DNA of 64,000 nucleotides from a bacterium (GTDB lineage: Bacteria; Armatimonadota; Fimbriimonadia; Fimbriimonadales; Fimbriimonadaceae), in assembly GCA_027483535.1 (NCBI GenBank), contig JAIXUN010000003.1, positions 124,001 through 188,000 of the forward strand, written 5' to 3'. Positions 52,155 through 58,608 of the stretch are shown here, piece after piece. The number at the start of each line of letters is the position of its first letter. Positions within the stretch are counted from its first letter, which is position 1. Below the pieces are notes generated by a model. It was not told where the DNA came from. It saw only the letters and a list, made by a program, of their open reading frames with translations, and searched no databases. A program made the translations under genes and the position numbers.

Positions 52155-54698
52155 ATGTCGGCAACGAATTTTGCGGGGTCGGGATTGCTTGTGATCGAGT
52201 TCAATAACGTTCTATCCGCGGGTCGATCTGCGATCCGACTCTTGGGGGTCGATTCGACCCTTCGATCTGCCGTGATCGCGAGCACCCTCGCCCTGGCAAC
52301 TGCAGGACTGGCGCAAACGGGCCCATCTCAGGGGAGCGGCGGCGAGATCACCATTCGCATGATGCCCGGCGCGGGCTACGGCATTCCGCCCAAAGAAGCC
52401 ACCAGCACCACCGCGCTCATTCGCCGAGCCACCTTCGAAGCCTTCCACGCCAAAAACCCGGGCATTCGAGTGGTTAACGCGGGTGGACTCACGCTGGCAG
52501 GCGATCTCGCCGACAGCATGTTCCTGATGTCCATGGCCGGGGACACCTCGCCCGACATTTTTTACGTCAACTTTCGGCAGTACTTCACCTTCTTGGAGCA
52601 GGGCTTCGCAAGGCCGCTCGATGACCTGGTGGCGAAGGATCCAGAGGTGTTCAACCGCACCAACCCGGTGGTGAAGAAGGTGGTCACCGGGTACGACGGC
52701 AAGGTTTACGCGATCCCGTTTTTCCAAGTCGCGATGGCGCTTTACTATCGCAAAGACTTCTTTTCTAAAGCGGGACTAGACCCCAACAAGCCGCCTCGAG
52801 ACTGGAAGGAGTTTTACGAGTACTCGCAGAAGCTCACCGACGCCAAATCGGGTCGATTCGGGTTCGCGTTTTCCACCCCGCCTGCGTATCTGTGGGCGAA
52901 CTTCCTCTACGCCGCGGGTGGCGAGGTGGTGAAGCCCGGCGACACTCCGCAAGGACCCTGGAAGTCGGTCATCAACTCGCCGGAAGCGGCCAAAGCGGTC
53001 GAGTTCTATCGAAAGCTGGTCACCGAAACGTGGAAGGGTCCGGACGGGAAATCGATCGGTCCGGCCGCCTTCAACAGCAAGAACCTGAACGACGACATTC
53101 GAACGGGCAAGATCGCCATGTGGCTGAACTACACCAACGATGTGGTGCTTCAGCAAAGCGACCTTCCGCCGAGCCAGATCGGCATGGCACGCGTTCCGGC
53201 AGGTCCCGGTGGATACGCCAACGAGATCAACGCGGGCATGTGGGCCATCTCGTCTCGAGTCACCGATCCCAAAAAGCTGGAAGCCTGCTGGAAGTTCATC
53301 AAGTTCTTCTCCGGCGACGAGGCGGCGCGGATCAATACCGAGAAGTGCATCGAGCTAGGGCTTGGCAACCTGGTGAACCCGGTTTGGCTGAAGAAATTTG
53401 GTCATACCGACTACTTGGCGCAGGTGGATCCCGACTACGTAAAAGCCAACGAGGAGCTGTTCAAATCGGGTCACCCGGAACCGTACGGCAAGAACTGTCA
53501 GCAGGTGTACACCGTCATGGACAACGCGCTGGACAAGGCGCGATTGGAGCCCAACACCGACGTTCGAGAGATTCTTGCCGAGACCGAGCGGGAGATGAAT
53601 AACAAGCTGCTCGGCTACACTCCACCGGAGATTTTGGCTCGTCAACGCGCGTGGGCGGCGGGAATCTTTGGGTGCATAGGCCTTGCCCTCATTCCGCTCA
53701 GCGTGTGGGGTTTCAAGAAGGCTCGCGCGGCGGCGGCGAACACTATCGACCGCGTCCCATCGGGAGTCGATCGACGCAGCATGTGGCGATTTTTGGCGGT
53801 TTGCCTTGGTCCGGCGATGCTCACCATCGCCCTTTGGCACTACTATCCGCTGCTGCGCGGGTTGGTGATTGCGTTCCAGGAGTACAGCATCATGCGCGGG
53901 ACTCGGTGGGTTGGTTTCGACAACTTCATCGGCGTTTTCACGCAGCCCGTGTTCTACAAGTCGCTTTGGAACAGCTTTGTTTACGTGGGTCTCAGCCTGC
54001 TCATCGGGTTCTTTGTGCCGATCTTCTTGGCATTGGCGCTCAACGAGATCCCGCGTTTCAAGACCTTTTTCCGAACCGTTTTCTACCTACCCGCCATGAC
54101 CAGTTCGATAGTGGTGGCGTTTGTTTGGCGGCAGTTTTACGACAAGAGCCCTCAGGGTCTGTTGAATTCATTGGTGGGTCCTTTTGTGGAATCGGTAGTG
54201 AATCCGGTGCTGGGCGCACTGGGTCAACAGCCTTGGCCCACGGCTTACGACTGGCTGGGTGATCCGACTTTGGCGATGTTCGCGGTGGTTCTCCCCGGAG
54301 TCTGGGCGGGCGCGGGTCCGGGTTCGATTCTGTACCTGGCGGCGCTCAAGAACATCTCCGAGGATCGGTACGAGGCGGCGGATTTGGACGGCGCGAACTG
54401 GGTGAAGAAGATTCGGTACATCACCCTGCCGGGCCTGAAGCCGTTGATCTTGATCAACCTGCTGGGAGTGTTCATCGCCGGGTTTAAGGCGATGGAGAAC
54501 ATCTTCGTCCTCACGCAGGGTGGCCCGCTGAACTCGACGCGGACGATCGGGTTGGAGGTTTGGCAGAACGCGTTTATGTTCCTGAAGTTCGGCTACGCGA
54601 CGGCGGCGGCGTGGGTGATGGGGTCGATTTTGATCGGGTTTACGTTGATCCAGATTCGGTCGTTGCTGGCGATGCGGTTCTCGACGGCTCGGGCGTAG
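52155..54698 (+). CDS. Fusion of ABC sugar-type substrate-binding protein and membrane permease
   Basis: 847 residues. A hydrophobic export segment (VIASTLALATAGLAQ near 38-53) precedes an extracellular solute-binding domain of family 1 (about 60-490) with FYEYSQKLTDA, GKIAMWLNYTND and WKFIKFFSGDEAARIN. A membrane helix near 497-517 (IFGCIGLALIPLSVWGF) brings the chain to the cytoplasm, and a MalF/UgpA-type permease follows (about 540-847) with the EAA loop EAADLDGANWVKKIRYITLPG near 738-758. The binding protein is thus tethered to its pore. No second permease or ATPase gene is next to it, so the partner must be encoded elsewhere. The exact start is uncertain (alternatives GTG 52191, TTG 52242). 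Confidence 0.85.
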   Translation: MSATNFAGSGLLVIEFNNVLSAGRSAIRLLGVDSTLRSAVIASTLALATAGLAQTGPSQGSGGEITIRMMPGAGYGIPPKEATSTTALIRRATFEAFHAKNPGIRVVNAGGLTLAGDLADSMFLMSMAGDTSPDIFYVNFRQYFTFLEQGFARPLDDLVAKDPEVFNRTNPVVKKVVTGYDGKVYAIPFFQVAMALYYRKDFFSKAGLDPNKPPRDWKEFYEYSQKLTDAKSGRFGFAFSTPPAYLWANFLYAAGGEVVKPGDTPQGPWKSVINSPEAAKAVEFYRKLVTETWKGPDGKSIGPAAFNSKNLNDDIRTGKIAMWLNYTNDVVLQQSDLPPSQIGMARVPAGPGGYANEINAGMWAISSRVTDPKKLEACWKFIKFFSGDEAARINTEKCIELGLGNLVNPVWLKKFGHTDYLAQVDPDYVKANEELFKSGHPEPYGKNCQQVYTVMDNALDKARLEPNTDVREILAETEREMNNKLLGYTPPEILARQRAWAAGIFGCIGLALIPLSVWGFKKARAAAANTIDRVPSGVDRRSMWRFLAVCLGPAMLTIALWHYYPLLRGLVIAFQEYSIMRGTRWVGFDNFIGVFTQPVFYKSLWNSFVYVGLSLLIGFFVPIFLALALNEIPRFKTFFRTVFYLPAMTSSIVVAFVWRQFYDKSPQGLLNSLVGPFVESVVNPVLGALGQQPWPTAYDWLGDPTLAMFAVVLPGVWAGAGPGSILYLAALKNISEDRYEAADLDGANWVKKIRYITLPGLKPLILINLLGVFIAGFKAMENIFVLTQGGPLNSTRTIGLEVWQNAFMFLKFGYATAAAWVMGSILIGFTLIQIRSLLAMRFSTARA

Positions 54699-57064: not shown

Positions 57065-57111
57065 TTGTTTTCTCGCTTGTAAGGCCCGCGGGGGTGCGAT
57101 TTCACAAATGA

Positions 57112-57143
57112 AAAAGCGCCCGTGAACCCAAGTTCACGAGCGC
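57112..57143 (-). terminator. Terminator in the ahcY leader, overlapping the riboswitch
   Basis: On the minus strand GCGCTCGTGAAC pairs with GTTCACGGGCGC around TTGG and is followed by TTTTT. The first six bases of its 5' arm (57138-57143) are also the 3' strand of the riboswitch pseudoknot, so the two structures exclude each other. Confidence 0.9.
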
Positions 57144-57250
57144 AGTTGTTGCCGATCTCTCGGTTGGCCGAGCCTGGTCCTCTCCTCGAACCAACCTTCT
57201 TGCTCTGGACAAGAACGATGTTTCGGAAGGGATCGCAGCGCCCCTCGACC
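57138..57250 (-). promoter_or_regulatory. S-adenosylhomocysteine (SAH) riboswitch
   Basis: Upstream of ahcY on the minus strand, the known aptamer elements occur in order: P1 GGTCGAG/CTCGGCC (57244-57250 with 57166-57172), conserved GGGGCGCTGCGA, a variable P2 arm, conserved CAGGCTCGG, P4 CCGA-GAGA-TCGG (57152-57163), and the pseudoknot GGGCGC with GCGCTC (57138-57143). Binding of SAH would hold GCGCTC in the pseudoknot, stop the overlapping terminator from forming and let ahcY be read. Confidence 0.92.
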
Positions 57251-57342
57251 TTTTCCTATTCTACGATATTCGGTTTTGAACGGTTCTCGCCTCAGACGCC
57301 CTCGTTGAGAAAGTCTCGAAAAATGCAGTGCCGAAACTCACG

Positions 57343-58608
57343 TCAGGCTTCCACTAAAGCCCGACCCTCTTGCTTCGCCATACCGACACTGTTGCGCCAA
57401 ACAGAAACCATCAAGCCGAGAAGCACCAAGAGCATGCCCGACCGGAGAACGGCAACCGCGATGTCGGCCACGGTCTGAGACTGGGTGAGAAACGGAGGAC
57501 TTCGGCGCAAGAGGACCGACGAAAGCACCGCATAGCCAAGAAGCAGAATCCAGGACAACGCTTCTTTGACCTTCGATGCTGGAAAAGCCACCAGGAGCAC
57601 GCCAACGCAAGCGGTTACCCAGATGGCGTAATTGACTTGCCCAAGCTTTCCAAATGCGACAAAGATCACGGTTGAGGCAATGGTGAGCCAAACCATCTTC
57701 TCGGCGGCGCTTCGGTCTTTAGCTCGATGAGCGTTCCAATACAAGACGCCAAAGAGCACCAGAACGACGAGCGTCGAGACCTTGGTGAAGACTTGCGCAA
57801 CGGAGCCCGTCATCGTATTGGTCGAATACTTCCACTCCACAAGCCCTTGCGAGACTCCTGCCTTTTGCAGACAAAGATCGATGGCTCCCCACAGCGAGTA
57901 CATGTCGATCGTGCGGGATCCGTGATACTTTAAAGCTTCAAGAAATCCAGACCAACCCGCAACAACAAAGGCCAAGCAAAAAAGCGATAGCGCTGCGAAG
58001 GTAAACAAGAGCTTCTTTCTATCGGGCTTCTGCAAATACACAAAGAACGCGGGGACAGCAAAGACGGGAACCACCTTTACAAAGGCCGAAGCAAGAAGAA
58101 GCGCCGAGCCTCGAAAAGCCTTTCCTTCCAAAAGACACGCCGATCCGACCAAGATGGCGCAAAAGACGGTGGCGTCAAACGTCATTGCGGTGATGGTTCC
58201 CATCAGGTTCAGTGCGAGAACGCACAACAAGGTTCGCCACCACGTTCCCCGGGTTTGAATCTCAAAGTTGGCGAAATAGCCCACCGAACACGCCAGAAAC
58301 AGGAATGTGAACGTGCTCTTCAGCAGGATGAATTGCTCTAGGGTCTCCGCCTTGGAAAAGAATCCAAACCCAAAGATGAAAAATACAGCCAGCGGGGGAT
58401 ACTCGAACGAAAACCCCGACCAAGGGAGCTTGCCTTTCACAAAAGGTAAATAGTATAGGTCGTAGTAATAACTAAGAAGAGTATGCGAGAGCGCAATGCC
58501 AGAAGCTGCAAAACGCACGTAGATGGTTAGGACGAGAATCGCCAGAATCGATCGAGCGACCCATGGGTCTCGCATCAGTGTAGAGGGGGATCGAGAAGTA
58601 TCCTGCAT
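57343..58608 (-). CDS. Multi-pass membrane glycosyltransferase of the GT87 type
   Basis: 421 residues with about nine to eleven hydrophobic segments. Early features DLYYLPFVKGKLPWSG and FSFEYPPLAVFF (around 50-75) match the GT87/DUF2029 family, polyprenyl-phosphate-mannose-dependent transferases. An Asp early in an outer loop is usually catalytic (here the DLYY Asp is a candidate). It is next to a GT4-type glycosyltransferase gene in the same direction, which suggests a surface glycan step. Sugar and acceptor are not predictable. Confidence 0.75.
   Translation of the reverse strand: MQDTSRSPSTLMRDPWVARSILAILVLTIYVRFAASGIALSHTLLSYYYDLYYLPFVKGKLPWSGFSFEYPPLAVFFIFGFGFFSKAETLEQFILLKSTFTFLFLACSVGYFANFEIQTRGTWWRTLLCVLALNLMGTITAMTFDATVFCAILVGSACLLEGKAFRGSALLLASAFVKVVPVFAVPAFFVYLQKPDRKKLLFTFAALSLFCLAFVVAGWSGFLEALKYHGSRTIDMYSLWGAIDLCLQKAGVSQGLVEWKYSTNTMTGSVAQVFTKVSTLVVLVLFGVLYWNAHRAKDRSAAEKMVWLTIASTVIFVAFGKLGQVNYAIWVTACVGVLLVAFPASKVKEALSWILLLGYAVLSSVLLRRSPPFLTQSQTVADIAVAVLRSGMLLVLLGLMVSVWRNSVGMAKQEGRALVEA

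Follow-up and report, generated by a model that had tools for sequence, protein, structure and literature searches.

S-adenosylhomocysteine (SAH) is a toxic by-product of methylation that is removed by the hydrolase AhcY, and riboswitches of the SAH class (Rfam RF01057), whose members bind SAH and discriminate strongly against SAM, sit upstream of SAH-recycling genes such as ahcY and metF. The title of Wang et al. (2008), cited in PMC2864571, presents this class as activated by SAH. Its published range, as far as we found, comprises the beta- and gamma-proteobacteria and the Mycobacteriaceae, and the presence in the latter has been taken as a sign of horizontal transfer (PMC3766115); a Mycobacteriaceae copy included in our comparison, L057, scores 60.7 bits. 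Two further systems are related by ligand or by target. The SAM/SAH riboswitch (RF01727) is on record only in front of metK in Rhodobacterales, and in Proteobacteria ahcY can be regulated by the protein SahR (PMC4239095).

We analyzed a stretch of 64,000 nucleotides (the window) from a bacterium of the phylum Armatimonadota, very probably of the family Fimbriimonadaceae, in which a preliminary description had proposed an SAH riboswitch with a mutually exclusive terminator in front of ahcY. The element resembles the RF01057 class (Wang et al., 2008, cited in PMC2864571) in its P1 and P2 helices, its core CCAGGCUCGG, its pseudoknot, its position upstream of ahcY and its expected activation by SAH. 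It differs from known members in its host phylum and in a P2 of 55 nt, and from most sampled members in other phyla in an intrinsic terminator that shares a strand with the pseudoknot. Like the SahR regulon, it would place ahcY under SAH-responsive control, with an RNA in place of a DNA-binding protein. The best explanation, which we hold with high confidence, is that it is an RF01057 riboswitch that turns ahcY ON at the level of transcription, and that it has travelled together with a transferred ahcY of proteobacterial type. That the RNA binds SAH, that SAH turns the gene on and that the unit moved from Proteobacteria into Armatimonadota are points that we infer from sequence.

The aptamer and the gene it precedes

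The complete RF01057 model (positions 1–78) aligns to window positions 57252–57131 on the minus strand with a score of 38.7 bits, against a gathering cut-off of 37, and an E value of 0.0012 in the search of the window. The preliminary description had named this covariance search as its own refutation test, and the element passes it. A genome-wide search returned this as the single RF01057 match in the source genome, and an Rfam covariance search of the window gave no match to RF01727 or to the SAM riboswitch families, whose ligands belong to the same cycle. Judged alone, the score of the window copy is marginal, probably in large part because P2 is very long; the assignment as an SAH riboswitch is secure because of the comparative evidence from relatives described below.

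All of the parts named at the outset, including P1, the core and the pseudoknot, are found on the minus strand (Table 1). Both the P1 and P2 helices are present in the RF01057 alignment. P1 forms six of seven pairs (57251–57245 with 57171–57165), the outermost position being A.A, and the pseudoknot, which joins the junction following P1 to the 3′ tail, forms all six, one of them G.U. The core CCAGGCUCGG is intact, and AAC precedes the pseudoknot strand. Its single deviation is a U for the usual G before GCGCUC, likewise seen in 7 of the 58 copies of our family set (the window's family plus one copy from another family, G054) and in 8 of 63 copies elsewhere. The impression that P2 is unusually long was borne out: at 55 nt it exceeds every other P2 in the 58 family copies (median 13 nt, the next longest 38 nt), and a single copy among 63 outside Armatimonadota is longer (66 nt). 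Linker length ranges from 7 to 50 nt across family copies.

The long P2, the U for G and the A.A end of P1, in a copy at the lowest-scoring end of its family, could also be read as marks of a degenerate aptamer or one of altered specificity, recognizing for example SAM or another nucleoside. We consider this quite improbable, as the conserved core and pseudoknot are intact, the same U recurs in the copies counted above, P2 length is highly variable in the SAH class and the regulated gene encodes SAH hydrolase.

The gene lies 67 nt downstream of the aptamer, and its identification as ahcY stands, with a TIGR00936 score well above cut-off. It adjoins the switch in all 67 relatives in which the gene can be read. 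The nearest named relatives of its product are those of Armatimonadetes bacterium Uphvl-Ar1 and a MAG of Fimbriimonas sp. (82%). Two other features of the window were recorded. An 847-aa open reading frame at 52155–54698 on the plus strand resembles, by eye, a fusion of a sugar-binding protein with an ABC permease domain, and an Acido-Lenti-1 RNA (RF01687, 37.8 bits), an RNA of unknown function, lies at 2364–2411 on the minus strand, which also carries a tRNA gene ∼310 nt upstream of it.

Table 1. Features of the ahcY leader and gene, in window coordinates
Feature	Position	Strand	Basis or remark
SAH riboswitch aptamer	57131..57252	(-)	RF01057 match, 122 nt
P1 5′ strand AGGUCGA	57245..57251	(-)	covariation in 58 family copies
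P1 3′ strand UCGGCCA	57165..57171	(-)	directly 3′ of conserved CCAGGC
Pseudoknot 5′ strand GGGCGC	57238..57243	(-)	6/6 pairs with 57143–57138
Pseudoknot 3′ strand GCGCUC	57138..57143	(-)	also nt 1–6 of terminator 5′ arm
P2 hairpin region, 55 nt	57178..57232	(-)	unusually long
Optional linker hairpin CCGA-GAGA-UCGG, GNRA-capped	57152..57163	(-)	sequence
Terminator hairpin, 12 bp (8 G-C), loop UUGG	57116..57143	(-)	−20.4 kcal/mol; conserved and covarying in relatives
Terminator U tract UUUUU	57111..57115	(-)	sequence
Candidate −10 element TAGAAT	57258..57263	(-)	sequence; 5 nt before aptamer
ahcY, adenosylhomocysteinase, 471 aa	55649..57064	(-)	TIGR00936 612.6 bits, cut-off 497.6

The shared strand and its terminator

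The arms of the terminator hairpin (57143–57132 and 57127–57116) form 12 pairs, and the pseudoknot 3′ strand makes up the first six nucleotides of the 5′ arm, just as had been claimed. Taken alone, the 122-nt aptamer has an unremarkable minimum free energy (z −1.23); with the terminator included, the value is unusual (z −4.23). Folded without the terminator 3′ arm, the RNA has a predicted centroid that includes the pseudoknot helix; with this arm, the terminator appears in both the minimum-energy and the centroid structures. The predicted folding of the window RNA thus agrees with mutual exclusion of pseudoknot and terminator.

At low SAH, the GCGCUC strand would be drawn into the 12-bp terminator, which together with its U tract would stop transcription before ahcY. 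Accumulating SAH would bind the aptamer and stabilize the GGGCGC-GCGCUC pseudoknot, keeping the 5′ arm out of the terminator and allowing polymerase to read through into ahcY, such that SAH hydrolase would be made and SAH cleared. As far as can be judged from sequence, the anatomy of the shared strand agrees with ligand-driven ON control of this kind.

A gene encoded on the same strand, at 57343–58608, lies upstream of the hairpin, which by its score would pass for an ordinary terminator. The hairpin might with its U tract end that upstream gene, or be a bystander outside the switch, but we regard this as very improbable: in relatives with other neighbors the hairpin begins exactly at the pseudoknot strand, far above the rate in shuffled sequences, and the interval from the upstream gene to the aptamer usually contains its own −10-like site. 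In 63 of the 69 copies in Armatimonadota, a best-match search run without a shuffle control placed a TATAAT-like hexamer 3–8 nt upstream of the aptamer. A promoter scan upstream of the window aptamer found no good −35 element or full promoter match. We place the probable start of transcription shortly upstream of the aptamer.

Conservation of the aptamer and its platform

Of 291 Armatimonadota genomes, 69 carry the aptamer, with 64 copies above the cut-off and a best score of 62 bits; its recurrence at the same place in these 69 genomes rules out a chance match. The carriers comprise 57 genomes of the window's family, 11 of a second family (f10) and the single genome of another family, G054, an incomplete MAG whose copy is possibly contamination. 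Weak matches (18–23 bits) in carriers of the other AhcY types were set aside as noise, as control genomes also match at the loose threshold. Armatimonadota lie outside the published SAH riboswitch range that we found, and the suggestion that a copy in another phylum would extend this range has held.

Across the 58 family copies, P1 positions are 87% paired, versus 71% with partners swapped, and double changes occur at six of seven pairs; for P2 the corresponding values are 72%, 56% and six of six. The pseudoknot is paired at 345 of 348 positions. Its strand is nearly invariant, which makes covariation within these copies uninformative, and double changes are found in copies from other phyla (GAGCGU/ACGCUC and GGGCGC/GCGCCC).

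We assessed the platform with a strict test, in which the 12 nt from the pseudoknot 3′ strand must pair at no fewer than 9 positions with the 12-mer directly before a U tract. This was passed by 53 of 58 copies in the window's family set, where the mutually exclusive terminator of the preliminary description is thus conserved, and by 11 of 11 in the second family (64 of 69 in Armatimonadota); shuffled downstream sequences pass at 1–3%. Outside the phylum, 4 of 63 copies pass; these 63, mostly from Proteobacteria, were sampled by AhcY similarity, so that platform fractions describe that sample only. The difference between Armatimonadota and elsewhere gives a Fisher p of 2e-26, which overstates independence as the copies are related. 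The inner pairs of the terminator covary (0.96 with their own partners, 0.73 with swapped partners and 0.78 at maximum). One strand is the partner of both the pseudoknot 5′ strand and the terminator 3′ strand; a tuned competition between these two was considered and rejected, the A/G choice being uncorrelated (Fisher p 0.36).

Terminator-type SAH leaders are also found in some Burkholderiales (for example L055, L098 and L099), where the pseudoknot 3′ strand likewise enters a hairpin with a U tract. They are a minority there, whereas the form is nearly uniform in Armatimonadota. More generally, the competing hairpin in copies from other phyla has a U tract, by a looser test, in 9 of 64 cases and extends to the start-codon region in 30 of 64. 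This latter arrangement raises the prospect that the aptamer is real and control is mainly translational, or mixed, with the hairpin hiding or exposing a ribosome-binding site. A few copies within the window's family, for example L028 and L029 (in G031 and G006), point the same way: they have no terminator, their start codon lies 26–31 nt past the pseudoknot strand, and they are possibly translational versions. The terminator platform is therefore not universal in the window's family. For the window itself, however, translational control seems unlikely, as 51 nt lie between the hairpin and the ATG and the hairpin runs into five U's, the form carried by nearly all Armatimonadota copies. In a betaproteobacterial MAG (VGID01000010.1), copy L090 consists of tandem SAH aptamers upstream of ahcY, at 2276–2345 and 2374–2453 (63.8 and 53.1 bits).

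AhcY types and the origin of the unit

Three kinds of AhcY occur in Armatimonadota: one that is at least 75% identical to that of the window and of proteobacterial type (67 genomes), another long kind at 61–69% identity (27 genomes) and a short kind at ∼43%. The switch is present in 67 of 67 genomes with the first kind. Neither the 27 genomes with the other long kind nor the 21 genomes of the window's family with a short AhcY have it, and in that family no genome carries the first and short kinds together. In the remaining two switch-bearing genomes, ahcY is cut by a contig end.

In the AhcY tree, which came from a quick search, the window's family forms one group with modest support (SH-aLRT 90; 84 in a smaller set). 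The second family also forms one group (SH-aLRT 100), which is nested with Comamonadaceae and Sphaerotilaceae (96); it groups with the terminator-type Burkholderiales, and the window's family does not. The AU test rejects trees in which the two riboswitch-bearing families are joined in one clade (p 0.0067), and likewise trees that unite all long Armatimonadota AhcY (p 0.0048). Because the two families lie apart in the tree, Armatimonadota probably acquired switch and gene jointly, and twice, from Proteobacteria; the simplest account of these sequences is at least two transfers of an ahcY-riboswitch unit, at least one of them into the window's family and a separate one into the second.

Alternatively, switch and gene could have been inherited vertically from an ancestor in Armatimonadota and lost in most lineages. 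Two families do carry the switch, and three genera of the window's family (g1, g44 and g47) contain two AhcY types, which shows that loss or exchange takes place: among congeneric species, a long ahcY with the switch alternates with a short one without it, in different chromosomal neighborhoods. Given the rejected clades and the nesting of the second family with Comamonadaceae and Sphaerotilaceae, we find vertical inheritance distinctly unlikely. An in-place swap of short for long ahcY was also rejected, as neighbors differ even within a genus and no common insertion site was seen. A fuller account of the joint transfers, in which at least two of them displaced the short AhcY and the platform of the window's family turned from translational to transcriptional with aptamer and pseudoknot unchanged, is one that we offer tentatively and would not favor at even odds.

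The class, the gene and the ON logic are already known, and some of these copies may already carry an automatic Rfam annotation that drew no comment. We found no report of an SAH riboswitch in Armatimonadota in the literature searched; as far as could be searched, its presence there, its strict link to one transferred AhcY type and its near-uniform terminator platform are new. These results add a little-studied phylum to the range of a riboswitch class whose known members are mainly from beta- and gamma-proteobacteria, and would provide a clear natural example of an RNA sensor crossing phyla along with the gene it controls. The terminator platform, set against proteobacterial relatives that mostly lack one, makes the rebuilding of a platform after transfer testable.
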